NCBI RefSeq assembly: GCF_000176035.2
Contig: NC_015675.1
Location: 3,476,001-3,540,000, forward strand
Source: Mesorhizobium opportunistum WSM2075
Lineage (GTDB): Bacteria; Pseudomonadota; Alphaproteobacteria; Rhizobiales; Rhizobiaceae
DNA length: 64,000 nucleotides
Direction: 5' to 3'
The translations under genes and the position numbers were made by a program. Shown here in pieces: positions 24,699 to 31,206 of the stretch (position 1 is its first letter; every line of letters begins with the position of its first letter). The notes under the pieces were generated by a model. It ran no database searches, was not told where the DNA came from, and saw nothing but the letters and a program-made list of their open reading frames with translations.

Positions 24699-24747
24699 TG
24701 CGACAGGAATGCTCCGGCTGGCGGGCCGGAAAGCGGAGGCCGGTGTG

Positions 24748-25830
24748 ATGGGCAAAAAACGCGACTACAGTCTGGTCGGCGAAAGCACGCGGCTTGCGGT
24801 CGAGACCGGCCTGGCCTCGGCCGAGTGGTACCACACCGACGTGCCGCGCAAGGCGATGAAGGAGCTGATGCAACGCTCCGACGGTCCGGCGATCCGCGAC
24901 ACGGTGATCTGGCTCGCCGTCATACTGGGCTCCGCCGCCGGCATCGTCTGGTTCTGGGGCTCGTGGTGGGTGGTGCCGTTCCTGTTCGTCTACGGCGTGC
25001 TCTACGGCTCGTCGAGCGACTCCCGCTGGCACGAATGCGGCCACGGCACGGCCTTCCGCACGCGCTGGATGAACGATGTCGTCTACCACATCGCTTCCTT
25101 CATGCTGATGCGCAATCCGGTGCAATGGCGCTGGAGCCATGCCCGCCATCACACCGACACCATCATTGTCGGCCGTGACGCCGAGATCGCCGTCATGCGC
25201 CCGCCGGACCTGCTGAAGGCGGCGCTGGCGTTCACCGGGATTCTCGATTTCCGTTATTCGCTGCCGACCCTGGTGCGCCAGGCCTTTGGCACGCTGTCGG
25301 AGGAGGAGAAGAGCTACATCCCCGAGATGGAGCAGCACAAGGCGGTGGTCGTCGCTCGCTGGCACCTCGCCATCTATGTCGCGACCATCGCGCTTGCGAT
25401 CGCGCTGGGATCATGGCTGCCGCTGGTGCTGATCGGCCTGCCGCGCCTCTATGGCACCTGGCACATGGTGACGACCGGCCTGCTGCAGCATATCGGCCTT
25501 GCCGACAATGTCGTCGACCACCGGCTCAACACCCGCACGGTCTACATGAACCCGATCAGCCGGTTCATCTACTGGAACATGAACTACCACGTGGAGCATC
25601 ACATGTTCCCGATGGTGCCCTATCACGCGCTGCCCAGGCTGCACGAACTGATCAAGCACGACCTGCCCGAGCCGAACCCTTCCATGTGGCATGCCTATCG
25701 CGAGGTCTGGCCGGTCCTGCTCAGGCAGCTGAAATATGAGGATTATTACCTCAAGCGCGAATTGCCGCCGACGGCGAGACCCTATCGCGGCGAATTCCAC
25801 GAGGTCGATATGTCGGCGGCGGCCGAATAG
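24748..25830 (+). CDS. Fatty-acid-desaturase-superfamily di-iron oxygenase, MocD-like
   Basis: 360 residues with several membrane helices. Three histidine boxes bind two irons: HECGH (95-99), HARHH (131-135) and HVEHH (281-285). The adjacent Rieske ferredoxin matches the MocD-MocE pair of rhizopine catabolism, where the oxygenase is thought to demethylate an O-methyl inosamine. A similar oxidative demethylation or hydroxylation of a methylated polyol is the best guess; lipid desaturation cannot be excluded. Start ATG 24748 follows CGGAGG. Confidence 0.85.
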   Translation: MGKKRDYSLVGESTRLAVETGLASAEWYHTDVPRKAMKELMQRSDGPAIRDTVIWLAVILGSAAGIVWFWGSWWVVPFLFVYGVLYGSSSDSRWHECGHGTAFRTRWMNDVVYHIASFMLMRNPVQWRWSHARHHTDTIIVGRDAEIAVMRPPDLLKAALAFTGILDFRYSLPTLVRQAFGTLSEEEKSYIPEMEQHKAVVVARWHLAIYVATIALAIALGSWLPLVLIGLPRLYGTWHMVTTGLLQHIGLADNVVDHRLNTRTVYMNPISRFIYWNMNYHVEHHMFPMVPYHALPRLHELIKHDLPEPNPSMWHAYREVWPVLLRQLKYEDYYLKRELPPTARPYRGEFHEVDMSAAAE

Positions 25831-25844
25831 CTGAGGAGACAGAG

Positions 25845-26156
25845 ATGGCCGACTGGGTTGAAGCATGCGCGGTTGATGACATCGAGGAAGAGGATGTCAT
25901 CCGCTTCGATCATGGCGGCCGCACCTTTGCGATCTATCGCTCGCCGGATGACGAGTTCTTCGCCACTGACGGCTTTTGCACGCATGAGAAGGCGCATCTG
26001 GCCGACGGGCTGGTGATGGACGACATCATCGAATGCCCCAAGCACAATGGCCGCTTCAATTACAAGACCGGCCAGGCCAAGGGCGCGCCGGTCTGCGTCA
26101 ATCTCGCGACCTATCCGGTGAAGATCGAGGCCGGTAAGGTGATGATCGAGATTTGA
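25845..26156 (+). CDS. Rieske [2Fe-2S] ferredoxin, MocE-like
   Basis: 103 residues. The Rieske ligands are C45-T-H47 and C64-P-K-H67. It would pass electrons to the oxygenase encoded 14 nt upstream. No ferredoxin reductase (MocF-like) is found in this window, so the reductase must be supplied elsewhere. A GAGGAGACAGAG ribosome-binding region precedes the ATG. Confidence 0.92.
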   Translation: MADWVEACAVDDIEEEDVIRFDHGGRTFAIYRSPDDEFFATDGFCTHEKAHLADGLVMDDIIECPKHNGRFNYKTGQAKGAPVCVNLATYPVKIEAGKVMIEI

Positions 26157-26186: not shown

Positions 26187-26987
26187 ATGAGCCGAAAGAG
26201 ACCGACCGTCGCCGATCTGCGCGCGATGAAGGGCAAGCGCCAGCTGACCATGCTGCGCGTGCTCAACCTGGACGAGGCGGAGGCCGCCGAGCGGGCGGGG
26301 GTCGACATCGTCTCGGTGCCGCCCGAACTGGTGCTCAACCCGCAATACCGCGATGCAGCACCCAGCCTGTTCACCATGCCGGGCGAGAATTTCTTCGAGA
26401 TCGGTACGGCGGATGATTTCGTCCGCTGGGCGTTCCGGCTCTACAAAGCAAGCGCCGACGCGGTCTATTGCAGCGCCGGCTATGCCACGATCAAGCGGAT
26501 GGCTGATGACGCCATTCCCGTCATCGGCCATGTCGGGCTGATCCCGTCCCGCGCGACCTGGACCGGCGGCTTCAAGGCGGTCGGCAAGACCGCCGATGCC
26601 GCCATTCAGGTGTTCGAGGCGGTGAAGCAACTGGAGGCGGCCGGCGCCATCGGCGCCGAGATCGAAGTGGTGCCGGTCGAGGTGGCCAAGGCGATTTCCG
26701 AGCGCACCTCGCTGATCATGCTGTCGATGGGGGCGGGCACCGGCTGCGACGCGCAATATCTGTTCGCCGACGATATCCTTGGCCAGAACCGGGGCCACAT
26801 GCCCCGCCATTCCAAGGTCTATCGCAACTTCGCCGCCGAATATGACCGGCTGCGGGCGGAGCGGGTGGCGGCATTTTCCGAATATGTCGCCGACGTCAAC
26901 AGCGGCGCCTATCCCGAGGACAGGCACGTCGTGCACATGGATCCGGCCGAGCTACGCCTGTTTCTCGACAAGGTCGGCCGGGGTTAA
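26187..26987 (+). CDS. PanB-like (3-methyl-2-oxobutanoate hydroxymethyltransferase family) protein
   Basis: 266 residues, TIM barrel. Family segments include ADLRAMKGKRQLTMLRVLN at the start and the C-terminal EVVPVEVAKAISERTSL and MLSMGAGTGCDAQYLFADD, equivalent to the PanB IGAG...CDGQ...DMLG region. Canonical PanB transfers a one-carbon unit from methylene-tetrahydrofolate to a 2-oxoacid. No panC is adjacent, and the metal-binding N-terminal motif differs, so this is probably a catabolic paralogue and not a pantothenate enzyme. It overlaps the convergent lyase-like gene by 36 bp. Confidence 0.75.
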   Translation: MSRKRPTVADLRAMKGKRQLTMLRVLNLDEAEAAERAGVDIVSVPPELVLNPQYRDAAPSLFTMPGENFFEIGTADDFVRWAFRLYKASADAVYCSAGYATIKRMADDAIPVIGHVGLIPSRATWTGGFKAVGKTADAAIQVFEAVKQLEAAGAIGAEIEVVPVEVAKAISERTSLIMLSMGAGTGCDAQYLFADDILGQNRGHMPRHSKVYRNFAAEYDRLRAERVAAFSEYVADVNSGAYPEDRHVVHMDPAELRLFLDKVGRG

Positions 26988-28463
26988 GGTCCAATTCCCG
27001 CCGGCAAGCGCCGCATGGAGCGCTTCGGCCTCGACACCGAGCGGCCGGTCTTCCTTGAGGGCAGGGACAAGCGCGCGCGCCGCCGCATGGATCGCGCCAG
27101 TGTGTGGCGCCAGCGTCAACCCTTCACGCAGATCCACCGCCTGCGCCGCCGCCATCAGCTCGAAGGCGATCAGCCGCCGCCAGAGCGCGATCATGGCAGC
27201 GCATTTCGAAACGGCCAGCGGCGTCTGCGTTGCGTGGTCTTCGACGCCTTCCGACACGGGCAGGAAATCGAGCATCACAGGATTGGCCTTGTGGCGGATG
27301 CTGGCCAGGATCGATGTCGCCGTCTTCTGCAGCGGCACGAAACCAGCAGAGGCCCCGCCGACCGGCGACAGATATTTGGGCAGGCCGTTGCGGCCCGAAC
27401 CAGTGAGCTGGATGAAGCGGGCGACGCTTGCGGCGGCGCATTGCGCGATTGCCAGGCCAAGCGACTCGAAGGCGAGCGAAAGCGCGGCCGTGTGGAAATT
27501 GCCGGTCGACAACACCAGTTCGTCGTCACCGAGCACCAGCGGGTTGTCGGCGGCGGCGTTGAGTTCGATCTCGACGGCATGCTTTGCCTGACCGATTGCC
27601 TCGATCAGCGCGCCATGGATCGATGGCATGCAGCGGATCGACAGCGGGTCCTGTATGGTAGTCGGCGCGGGCGCCTCTTCGCGGGCGAGCAGATCATGCA
27701 GCGCCTTGGCGGCTTCCTGTTGACCGGCTGCGGGGCGGGCCATGTGCAGGCGTGGATCGAGGATGGTGCGATTGGCGCCAAACCCTTCCATGGTCAGCGC
27801 GCCTGCGTGCTGCTGCTGGGCCAGCGCCGACAGCGCATCGGTCACCGCAAGCGCGCCACTGCCGGCTGAGACCGCCGAGGCGTTGATCAGCGACAGTCCG
27901 TCCTTGGGCGCCAGGCCGATCGGAGCGAGGCGGGCCATCATCAGCGCCTTGGCGGCCGGCATGCGACGGCCCTGATAGTCGGCCTCGCCTTCGCCGATCA
28001 AGAGACGGGCTAGTGCCGTCATCAGCACCAGGTCGCCGGCACCGATCGAGCCGAGCGATGGCATCACCGGATGGACGCCGGCATTGAGTGCGTCGACCAG
28101 GGCGACAAACACGGCAGGCGACAGGCCGGAGCCGCCGGTGGACAGCATCGCCGCGCGGGCGACCATGGTTGCCCGCACGGCTTCCACCGGCAGCACTTCG
28201 CCGACCGCGGCGCTGCGCCCTTCCAGCAACTGGCGCTGGAAGGCACTGGCGTCGCCCTCGACCGTCGTGCCGAGATTGGCGCCGAGCCCGGTGTTCAGGC
28301 CGTAGATCTGCTGGCCGGAGGCGGCGGCCTGGTCGAGCACCTTTCGCGCCTTCTCCAGCCTGCCGATGACATCGGGTCCGATCTCTACCTTGCGCGCCTC
28401 GCGAGCGACGGTGGCGACATCGCTTGTGCTGACGCCGGTTCCGGTGAGGACGAGCGCGCTCAT
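26952..28463 (-). CDS. Aromatic amino acid lyase (HAL/PAL) homologue lacking the MIO serine
   Basis: 503 residues, family length. The fold markers YGLNTGLG (54-61), STGNFH (319-324) and VEDH (407-410) are retained. The cofactor-forming Ala-Ser-Gly is gone: GSIGAGDL (138-145) replaces GSVGASGDL with one residue deleted, and the catalytic Tyr of QD-YSLR is Leu (QDPLSIR, 271-277). Canonical 4-methylideneimidazole-5-one chemistry therefore looks impossible. Its start overlaps the stop of the upstream ornithine-cyclodeaminase-like gene by 4 nt, so both are probably one unit. The real reaction is unknown. Confidence 0.85.
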   Translation of the reverse strand: MSALVLTGTGVSTSDVATVAREARKVEIGPDVIGRLEKARKVLDQAAASGQQIYGLNTGLGANLGTTVEGDASAFQRQLLEGRSAAVGEVLPVEAVRATMVARAAMLSTGGSGLSPAVFVALVDALNAGVHPVMPSLGSIGAGDLVLMTALARLLIGEGEADYQGRRMPAAKALMMARLAPIGLAPKDGLSLINASAVSAGSGALAVTDALSALAQQQHAGALTMEGFGANRTILDPRLHMARPAAGQQEAAKALHDLLAREEAPAPTTIQDPLSIRCMPSIHGALIEAIGQAKHAVEIELNAAADNPLVLGDDELVLSTGNFHTAALSLAFESLGLAIAQCAAASVARFIQLTGSGRNGLPKYLSPVGGASAGFVPLQKTATSILASIRHKANPVMLDFLPVSEGVEDHATQTPLAVSKCAAMIALWRRLIAFELMAAAQAVDLREGLTLAPHTGAIHAAARALVPALKEDRPLGVEAEALHAALAGGNWTLTPADLVEKQA

Positions 28464-29461
28464 GCGAAGCGCAGCCTCTGGCCGATGCCTTTTTCTCCTG
28501 CCTTGGCCAGCATTGCCTTGCCCAGCGCAATGTCGGACAGCGACAGGCCGCGATGCCAGAACAGGATGGTTTCGTCATCGCTCTGGCGTCCGGGCTTGAG
28601 GCCGGCGGCGATCTGGCCGAGTTCGGCATGCAGCGTCTTTTCGCTCAGCCGGCCGGTCTCGACATGGGCGCGCAGCGAGCCGAACTTGCCGCCCTTGCAC
28701 TGGCCCCAGTCGTCGACGACCGTCTTCTGCATGATGTCGGTCAGCGATAGCTCGACCGCGCTCATCGTGCCGTAGGGCACGACCAGCGCGCCAGGCTTGA
28801 TCCATTCGGTCTTGAGCAGCGGTTGCGGCTCCGGCAGGCGCGAAGCCTCGACGACGATGTCGGCGCCTTCGACGCAGCTCTTCCAGTCGGCCACGGCCGT
28901 GACCTTCTTGCCGAGATCGGCGGAGAGCTTGGCGGCAAAGCCGTCGCGGCTCTCCGGGCGGCGCGAATGGACGCGGATTTCGTCAAAGTCGAAGAGATGA
29001 TCGAGCAGGCGTACGTTCCAGTAGGCGGTGCCGCGTGCGCCGATATGGGCCAGCACCTTGGAATTCTTGCGCGCCAGATGTTTGGCGCCGATGGCGGTGA
29101 CGGCGCCCGTGCGCATGTCGGTGATGACGGTGGCGTCGAGAATGGCGCGCGGCATACCGGTGCGCGGATCGAACAAATTGAGGATGCCGAATTCCGAGGG
29201 CAGGCCGTGCAGGTAGTTGTCGACGTAGTCGCCGACGATTTTCACACCCGCTGTATCGAGTGGCGCCACATAGCCGCGCAGCACGTTGAAATGGCCGTGG
29301 AAGGATGGATCCGGTTCGAGATGGACACGTGGTTCGATCACCGTCTGGCCCTTGCCCTGGGCGAGAAGGCCAGCCTCGACGGCGGCAATGATTTCGCCAT
29401 CGGTCATGGCAAGGGCATCGATGTCGAGGGCATTGAGGTAGTCGATATAGATCGCCTTCAT
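28460..29461 (-). CDS. Ornithine cyclodeaminase/mu-crystallin family protein
   Basis: 333 residues from ATG 29461 (MKAIYIDYLNALDID). An NAD-binding Rossmann core with VLAHIGARGTAYWNVRLL and VHSRRPESRDGFAAKL is typical. Members include ornithine cyclodeaminase, imine reductases and alanine dehydrogenases. Longer starts at 29497 or 29512 are possible; a GAGGA lies 14-18 nt ahead of 29461. It is the first gene of a two-gene minus-strand unit with the lyase homologue, so the pair probably handles an amino or imino acid. Confidence 0.85.
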   Translation of the reverse strand: MKAIYIDYLNALDIDALAMTDGEIIAAVEAGLLAQGKGQTVIEPRVHLEPDPSFHGHFNVLRGYVAPLDTAGVKIVGDYVDNYLHGLPSEFGILNLFDPRTGMPRAILDATVITDMRTGAVTAIGAKHLARKNSKVLAHIGARGTAYWNVRLLDHLFDFDEIRVHSRRPESRDGFAAKLSADLGKKVTAVADWKSCVEGADIVVEASRLPEPQPLLKTEWIKPGALVVPYGTMSAVELSLTDIMQKTVVDDWGQCKGGKFGSLRAHVETGRLSEKTLHAELGQIAAGLKPGRQSDDETILFWHRGLSLSDIALGKAMLAKAGEKGIGQRLRFA

Positions 29462-29582
29462 GTCAATGCGTGCACTTTCCTCGGTTGCCCCGCTCATCCC
29501 ATAGCAGGCCACGGCGCGACACGAAAGTTTGTTGCGCTATCTATGGACGCTGCCTCCCAAATGCTGTTCAAACCGATCCGTC

Positions 29583-31008
29583 ATGACTGCCATTCCCGAG
29601 ACTGAAGCCTCGTCCGAAACGGCCACGAATGCGCGGCGCGTGGCGCTGATCGTCGCCATCGCCTTCTTCATGCAACTGCTGGATTCGACGATCATCTCGA
29701 CGTCGCTGCCGCAGATGGGCGCCTCCTTCGGCGTGCCGGCGGTGGCGATGAGCATCGGCATCACCATCTACATGCTGACCATGGCAGTGTTCGTGCCATT
29801 GTCGGGCTGGCTCGCCGACCGCTTCGGCGCGCGCAACATCTTCCTAGTGGCGATCGCGCTGTTCACTTTGGCCTCGCTCGCCTGCGGCTTCTCGCAAAAC
29901 TTGACCGAGTTCGTTGCCGCGCGCGCAGTGCAGGGGCTGGGCAGCGCGCTGATGACGCCGGTCGGGCGCATTCTCGTCCTGCGCAACGCCTCGAAATCCG
30001 AGCTGCTCAATGCCACGGCGCTGATCACCTGGCCGGCGCTGTTCGCGCCAGTGGTCGGGCCGGTGCTCGGCGGCTTCATCACCACCTATCTCTCATGGCA
30101 CTGGAATTTCTTCATCAACATACCGCTGGGCGCGATCGGGCTGGCGCTGGTTGCGCGCTTCATTCCCGGCGACCGCGAGGCCGACCCGAAGCCTTTGGAC
30201 TGGCCGGGGTTTTTCCTGACATCGGCGGGGCTCGCGCTGCTGCTCTACGGTCTCGAGCGCATCGCGCATCCGGAAGACGGCGTCTTGCCGACAGTACTGC
30301 TGATCGTTGCCGGTATCATCGTCTCCTGGCTGGCGGCGCGGCATCTCCGGCGCGCGCCGCATCCGCTGCTCGATCTTTCCTCGTTCAAGGTACTGACTTT
30401 CGCCATCTCGACGCTCGCCGCCGGCACCATCTTCCGGGTGGCAATCAACGCCACGCCGTTCCTGCTGCCGCTTTTGTTCCAGGTCGGCTTCGGCCTCAGC
30501 CCCGTCGATGCCGGCATGATGATCCTGGCCTATTTCCTCGGCAATCTAGGCATGGACGACGCCGACCTTGCGGCGTTTCGGCTTCCGCTCGGTGATGGTC
30601 GTCAACGGCCTGATCGCCTCGGCCTCGATCATGGCCTGCGGGGCGATTTCGCCCCAGACACCACAGGCATTGGTGGTGGCGCTGATGCTGGTCGCCGGCC
30701 TGTCGCGCTCGATGCAGTTCACGGCGCTCAACACGCTGGCCTTCGCCGATATCGAAGCGGCACAGCGCAGTTCGGCGGCGACGCTGTCGTCGATGCTGCA
30801 GCAGGTGGCGATGCTGTTCGGCGTCGCGGTGGCGGCCGCGATCCTCAATCTGTCGCAGATCGTGAGGGCCCAGCCGGCGCTCGACCTCACCGATTTCCGA
30901 ATCGCCTTCCTGGCGATCGGCGTCATCGGGCTGGTGGCCGCGCTGCGATTTCTAGTGCTGCCGCCCGGCGCCGGCGCCGAGGTTTCCGGCCACACGCCGG
31001 GGAATTGA
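29583..31008 (+). pseudogene. MFS transporter (DHA2/EmrB type) broken by a frameshift
   Basis: The first part (29583-30555) encodes about ten membrane helices, with DSTIISTSLPQMG, the motif-A loop PLSGWLADRFGARN and GPVLGGF. At about 30555 the frame changes: homologous sequence continues from TLRRFGFRSVMVVNG to the stop at 31008 in another frame. The local sequence ATG-G-ACG-ACG-CCG-ACC suggests loss of two bases or gain of one. The full product would be about 475 residues. Either it is a recent pseudogene or the assembly has an error here. It diverges from the cyclodeaminase gene across a 120-bp gap. Confidence 0.8.
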
Positions 31009-31206
31009 AAATCGAATTTTTCCGCCTGGCGCGGAGATAAATTCCGCCTTGTCCTTTCGCCTTGATCCAGCACTTTCGCGCACAGCTGACATGGCGCAAT
31101 CAATTGCCAAAAATGCAGGCTTTTCCACGCATTGCGCCAGCTTAGGCTATCGATGCGTCCACTCTGCGAATATCGACATCAGGCCTCGTTCCGGACGCGG
31201 ATTCAT

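Follow-up and report, generated by a model that had tools for sequence, protein, structure and literature searches.

A MIO-less aromatic-amino-acid-lyase homologue of Mesorhizobium opportunistum and its divergent cyclodeaminase-family partner: a putative MIO-independent C-N lyase

Introduction

Ammonia-lyases use the electrophile 4-methylideneimidazole-5-one (MIO) to make a poor leaving group good. Here we consider a lyase homologue that lacks the MIO-forming triad; it is encoded in a 64,000-nucleotide stretch of the genome of Mesorhizobium opportunistum WSM2075 (contig NC_015675.1, positions 3,476,001 to 3,540,000; the window), where its gene overlaps that of a divergent member of the ornithine cyclodeaminase/mu-crystallin (OCD) family.

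Two described systems lie closest to this window lyase. Histidine ammonia-lyase (HAL or HutH; PDB 1b8f, and L081 in the same genome, where handles in L denote loci and those in G genomes) has the same fold and the same YG-N-TG, GNFH, and EDH motifs, but differs in possessing Ala-Ser-Gly, the Tyr of QDPY, His83, and Val or Ile at the column of window residue Lys380. Ergothionase, the ergothioneine trimethylamine-lyase of Treponema denticola (PDB 6s7j and 6s7q), also has the PF00221 fold, and its MIO site, SSIGEGDI, is likewise one residue short and devoid of Ser; a 2026 paper (PMC13405746) describes ergothionase as free of MIO. Both ergothionase and the window lyase have Leu for Tyr in QDPLS and Lys in QKT, and keep the Tyr, Arg, and Glu of the family; they differ in overall sequence (31% identity), in residue 83 (His in ergothionase, Arg in the window lyase), and in clade.

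Results

The window lyase is encoded by an intact frame with the following landmarks, all on the minus strand:

26952..28463, minus strand: MIO-less PF00221 lyase gene of the Arg83 branch, 503 amino acids, no internal stop
28029..28052, minus strand: GSIGAGDL codons (residues 138-145), the would-be MIO site, one residue short
27633..27653, minus strand: QDPLSIR codons (residues 271-277), with Tyr replaced by Leu274 and Arg277 retained
28215..28217, minus strand: Arg83 codon
27324..27326, minus strand: Lys380 codon (QKT)
28302..28304, minus strand: Tyr54 codon (YGLNTG), family-wide
27240..27242, minus strand: Glu408 codon (VEDH), family-wide

The original prediction, made from the letters of the window, had named the GSIGAGDL and QDPLSIR sites, the three fold motifs (YGLNTG at residues 54-59, STGNFH at 319-324, and VEDH at 407-410), and the intact 503-codon frame, and every one of these was confirmed. 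Residues 12-463 match PF00221 at 435.7 bits, above the Pfam gathering score, and together with the structure match this places the protein in the aromatic amino acid lyase fold. It falls well below the HutH cut-offs (360.7 bits against 539.15 for NCBIfam TIGR01225, and 383.9 against 524 for PRK09367), and GSIGAGDL contains neither Ala-Ser-Gly nor Ala-Cys-Gly, being one residue shorter than the GSVGASGDL of the canonical HutH (L081) located elsewhere on the same 6.88-Mb replicon. A role in the Hut pathway was rejected in view of that canonical HutH and of the score below the HutH cut-off. Database records nonetheless call such proteins histidine ammonia-lyase or HAL/PAL/TAL-family (histidine, phenylalanine, or tyrosine) ammonia-lyase; the closest named relatives are nearly all from Mesorhizobium. 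Ergothionase is the top PDB match by both sequence and structure (level with tyrosine aminomutase in one structure comparison), and the window lyase has the residues of an ergothionase-type site: a MIO-less loop, Tyr54, Arg277, Lys380 in QKT, and Glu408 in EDH.

Loss of the MIO triad is shared by every orthologue compared. We kept 80 orthologous loci from genome contigs (at least 76% identity) out of 130 confirmed; the site reads GSIGAGDL in 70, GSIGDSDL in 7, and ASIGAGDL in 3, is one residue short in 80/80, and has the inserted residue or the Ala-Ser-Gly triad in none. The prediction that the standard triad is missing thus extends to the whole orthologous set; its statement that Ser is missing is true of the window site but needs qualifying for the 7/80 orthologues with Ser143, which still have no triad. 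dN/dS for the window lyase gene against 8 relatives is 0.10-0.26, and by these sequence measures the gene is intact and under purifying selection. Given the 80 short-site orthologues and this dN/dS range, neither chance nor sequencing error nor decay is a likely explanation, and the first two were rejected.

The MIO-less proteins also form a large group of their own. Our tree comprised 85 rows, 51 of them MIO-less, after removal of near-duplicates and omission of L096, which has no N-terminus; counts for HAL columns refer to 22 of the 28 MIO-type rows, leaving out 4 Ala-Cys-Gly rows, L106, and L181. All 51 MIO-less rows, with ergothionase (6s7j) among them, lie on one side of a 100/100 branch, and none has Ala-Ser-Gly or Ala-Cys-Gly; this rules out reading the loss as a singular oddity. 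By these sequence comparisons the window lyase is one of the MIO-less lyases, of which ergothionase is the known member. The window clade (13 rows, 100/100) stands apart from the ergothionase side (18 rows, 100/100) within the broader MIO-less branch.

Tyr54, Gln271, Arg277, Phe323, Glu408, and other residues are conserved at 95% or more across the compared rows (51 MIO-less, 22 HAL); Lys380 marks the MIO-less rows (47/51, against 0/22 HAL rows, which have Val or Ile); and residue 274 is Leu or Ile (one Val) in the MIO-less rows but Tyr in 22/22 HAL rows. Residue 83, which lines the active site in HAL (His83 of PpHAL), is Arg in 13/13 rows of the window clade, as opposed to His in 18/18 ergothionase-side rows and 22/22 HAL rows; an Arg at this position points to another kind of substrate group, one that may be anionic. 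The W61, K63, Y122, and H441 of T. denticola-type rows are not kept in the window clade.

Several other MIO-less or MIO-altered proteins were noted along the way. A second MIO-less paralogue on the window replicon (L083/L129, G000:C1:6087321-6088694) has His83 and GSIGA-ADL, and has counterparts in other genomes of the genus; the class III aminotransferase and the gene resembling succinate-semialdehyde dehydrogenase near it are uninformative for the window lyase. L097 (ASD), L099 (GSD), L101 (ASD), and L144 (TSD) are MIO-less proteins that retain Ser and lack Gly, and the first three also lack Lys380. L177 of Sinorhizobium meliloti ml47 pSymA, the same gene as L124 of strain 1021, is MIO-less, belongs to the ergothionase side, and has Ala at the Lys380 column; near it are a gene annotated as dimethylsulfoniopropionate lyase and an ATP-binding cassette (ABC) transporter. 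Second HutH-like proteins with GSVGY---LTH, LSH, or IVH (Y-type; L155, L156, L157, L160, L166, L158, L161, L163, L165, L167, L169, L305, L309, and L314), presumably Pseudomonas-like, lack the MIO triad as the window lyase does, but are three residues shorter and group with the HALs (100/100), and apparently represent a separate MIO loss; at five loci (L155, L156, L157, L160, and L166) the Y-type gene directly adjoins a canonical Ala-Ser-Gly HutH. The 2.7-Mb genome G236 yielded 30 PF00221-like matches, many highly divergent, and L293 and L290 are highly divergent PF00221 proteins (GNGGA-GEV and GMGMDGE) near OCD-subfamily genes.

The OCD-family partner overlaps the lyase gene:

28460..29512, minus strand: divergent ornithine cyclodeaminase/mu-crystallin-family partner
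28460..28463, minus strand: ATGA, the 4-bp overlap of partner stop and lyase start

The overlap would permit translational coupling of partner and lyase; the true start of the partner is probably near residue 18, since its relatives align mostly from residues 11-21. The lyase and the divergent OCD protein are a conserved gene pair. In 80/80 orthologous loci an OCD gene is found on the same strand no more than 300 bp away, and in 78/78, after removal of duplicates, one is found within 5 kb, bearing out the predicted linkage of GAGDL-type lyases to cyclodeaminase-like genes. With duplicates removed, 10 rows with less than 1.4 kb of flank dropped, and the window copy (L130) set aside, an OCD gene is found within 5 kb at 18/37 other MIO-less loci, as compared with 0/39 loci with Ala-Ser-Gly or Ala-Cys-Gly and 0/11 Y-type loci, and 17 of those 18 loci encode Arg83. 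Across 21 pairs, lyase distances and partner distances are in agreement (Mantel r 0.82, 0/2000 permutations), the partner being better conserved than the lyase (mean identity 75% vs 48%). Both genes are present on plasmids of Rhizobium acidisoli, Sinorhizobium sp. B11, and Rhizobium sp. CC-CFT758 (60% identity), where the lyase start overlaps the OCD end; on pRL12 of R. johnstonii 3841, in R. lentis, and in Martelella, about 1 kb apart; and in the beta-proteobacterium Polaromonas JS666, whose lyase (L125) has His83 and belongs to the ergothionase side. L125 and L096 (G501, OCD gene divergent, 45 bp away) are the exceptions, His83 lyases with an OCD gene nearby. Among six ergothionase-side loci, L125 is the one near an OCD gene of the partner type; L124, L127, L175, L176, and L177 are not.

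The association is also seen across genomes, although it is not strict. The OCD subfamily occurs in 36 of 535 genomes searched (27/385 of the class and 10/151 of the family, the window genome being counted in both) and is sharply bounded, with scores of 427-786 bits, one second copy at 318, and all other listed matches at or below 138. Lyases were read in part of the matching genomes (initially 30/116 of the class and 8/129 of the family, and later more, including 17 genomes in which some matches were left unread), so that lyases may have been missed. All 20 searched genomes with an Arg83 lyase read (the window genome included), whether linked or not, contain the OCD subfamily; G313 contains it alongside a partial lyase; and G106, with a His83 lyase, lacks it. 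A strict tie of OCD to lyase was rejected: 13 OCD-subfamily genomes have no Arg83 lyase among the PF00221 proteins read, of which 12 have only HALs, Y-type, or highly divergent PF00221 proteins, and G350 has no PF00221 match. G396 is an OCD-positive genome with divergent MIO-less copies. The neighbors of unlinked OCD genes, scanned for substrate clues, include SBP_bac_5, desaturase-fold, serine dehydratase, and PALP genes with no common theme. At L272, L273, and L287, which have no linked lyase, the OCD-subfamily gene adjoins a desaturase-fold gene (Pfam-checked in L272; the same cluster in L273 and L287); in L272 and L273 the two genes overlap at their tails by 4 bp.

The partner belongs to the OCD/mu-crystallin family (PF02423, 192.4 bits, with a conserved Lys91) but departs from its working enzymes. 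The Lys aligned with Lys65 of archaeal alanine dehydrogenase (1omo) is kept in 36/36 subfamily rows; Asp219, however, is replaced by Met (33) or Val (3), whereas Asp occupies this column, that of partner Met250, in 21/23 other OCD rows. GARGT stands where family members such as 1omo and SbnB (4m54) would have the GxGxQ stretch, the subfamily motifs being GARGT(A/S)YWNV for GxGxQA and PYGTMS for the GAD motif; 61 positions are subfamily-specific, and Arg160 is found in 0/23 other OCD rows. The partner thus has Met250 for the Asp of GAD/GSD and GARGTA for GxGxQA, where dehydrogenases and cyclodeaminases would have the family residues, and on this residue pattern the name "ornithine cyclodeaminase" fits it badly. 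The original prediction of a co-transcribed cyclodeaminase-family partner stands as regards the linkage, but its label was too simple.

Genes around the pair in the window vary in their association with it:

29529..31040, plus strand: major facilitator superfamily (MFS) transporter gene, divergent from the pair, non-core, near it in 63/80 orthologous loci
24709-25830, plus strand: MocD-like desaturase-fold oxygenase, convergent, near in 73/80
25845-26156, plus strand: MocE-family ferredoxin, convergent, near in 65/80
26187-26987, plus strand: PanB-like protein, convergent, near in 70/80

The same search found no MocD-, MocE-, or PanB-like genes in L121-L123, so these genes, though often present in Mesorhizobium loci, do not belong to the core. 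The window MFS frame loses C-terminal homology, which resumes in another frame (30568-31008); the C-terminal motif lies in one frame in 56/60 relatives checked, but not in the window copy. Among the 60%-identical relatives, the pair is accompanied by an ABC importer, by two NtaA/DmoA-type flavin monooxygenases, and, in 2/3 clusters, by a PhnD/SsuA-like binding protein; the binding protein of the importer itself (L121:5403-6284 in R. acidisoli) is most similar to precursors of acetylcholine and nicotine sensors, to ProX, and to EgtU (ergothioneine). The pRL12 cluster, with an importer of the same class, adds a CoA-transferase, a short-chain dehydrogenase/reductase, MaoC, a HutC-like regulator, and a YeiH exporter, as do loci L179, L180, and L204. 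By similarity, these importers resemble quaternary-ammonium binders, and the pRL12-type gene set fits breakdown of an enoate that would be derived by elimination.

Discussion

We propose, with a probability of roughly 0.55, that the product of the window gene is an active C-N lyase with the aromatic-amino-acid-lyase fold that works without MIO and putatively acts on a betaine-like substrate. Maurer et al. 2019 reportedly attributed ergothionase activity to acid/base catalysis with four essential residues. Trimethylamine would already be a good leaving group, making MIO dispensable; by analogy, the window lyase would eliminate a tertiary amine from a quaternary-ammonium amino acid by acid/base catalysis, with Tyr54 as the base and Lys380 and Glu408 assisting, to yield an alpha,beta-unsaturated acid. 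Arg83 would suit a substrate side chain that carries a negative charge or differs in some other way from the imidazole-thione of ergothioneine, and the OCD-fold partner might catalyze a further step, acting either on that substrate or on the product. MIO-free elimination of an amine would be the simplest account because MIO loss and the Lys of the MIO-less superclade are common to the window lyase and ergothionase; retention of Tyr54, Arg277, Glu408, and Lys380 favors elimination over a role in binding alone; and the substrate is probably not ergothioneine because of Arg83. The original interpretation is thus supported in part: neither a singular loss nor unprecedented chemistry is borne out, since ergothionase already eliminates without MIO in this fold.

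Several observations weigh against this proposal. The VIA-align Z score of ergothionase is tied (within 1) with that of tyrosine aminomutase 3kdz (43.5); Arg83 and the missing W61, K63, Y122, and H441 mean that the ergothionase analogy leaves the substrate unfixed; 19/37 further MIO-less loci (7 Arg83 and 12 His83, six of the latter being second paralogues in genomes of the same genus) have no OCD gene within 5 kb; the gene is not genus-wide, two of nine same-genus genomes (G700 and G703) having a single PF00221 match; and no betaine-type importer was seen beside the pair within the window.

The main rival, which we consider unlikely, is an enzyme that breaks the C-N bond of a secondary amine, for instance an opine-like or aminopolycarboxylate amino acid, or that runs in reverse to add the amine, its OCD partner cutting or making the other N-C bond; this accords poorly with importers that resemble quaternary-ammonium binders, and with a partner devoid of the Asp and GxG of working OCD-family dehydrogenases. 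Could the lyase instead regulate its partner, or scaffold it, as a pseudo-enzyme or a binding protein? The loss of MIO, the slower divergence of the partner, and the occurrence of the OCD subfamily without this lyase (as in G350) would all be explained, but MIO loss does not equate with inactivity, as ergothionase attests, and retention of Tyr54, Gln271, Arg277, Lys380, and Glu408 at the dN/dS found here makes such a role, including the pure binding role envisaged in the original prediction, quite improbable.

We regard it as highly improbable that the window lyase is ergothionase proper, even though ergothionase is its nearest solved structure, has a site that is likewise one residue short, and is matched by importers related to EgtU in relatives of the locus. 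Membership was rejected on placement outside the 6s7j clade (the two clades being separate at 100/100), on Arg83 for His83, and on the missing W61, K63, Y122, and H441; low identity to the T. denticola protein and the near absence of partner-type OCD genes on the ergothionase side (1/6 loci) point the same way. A standard ammonia-lyase with MIO, or a MIO-like group, built from other residues might be invoked for the orthologues with Ser143 or the distant members with A-S-D, G-S-D, or T-S-D, but with no triad in any MIO-less tree row or orthologue, no Ser at the window site, and the Tyr of QDPYSLR lost, we give this idea hardly any credence.

Beyond the proposed MIO-independent lyase itself, we tentatively suggest, at less than even odds, that Arg83 lyases and Met250 OCD-fold proteins could constitute an undescribed two-protein system for C-N cleavage that is spread over the alpha-proteobacteria and may extend further, and whose substrate and chemistry would differ from those of ergothionase and of any NAD-dependent OCD enzyme; rhizobia might use it to obtain carbon or nitrogen from a compound of the betaine type made by plants or present in soil. 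No paper describing the window clade or its OCD partner was apparent in the open-access literature, as judged from search entries.

The missing MIO triad argues against the current ammonia-lyase annotation, which is carried by a large branch widespread in Mesorhizobium and related bacteria; the literature searched yielded no function for this branch or for its OCD partner. The lyase and its OCD partner may cut a C-N bond not so far attributed to them. An assigned reaction would put many genome annotations right, would extend MIO-free lyase chemistry past ergothioneine, and could uncover a nitrogen source of legume symbionts.
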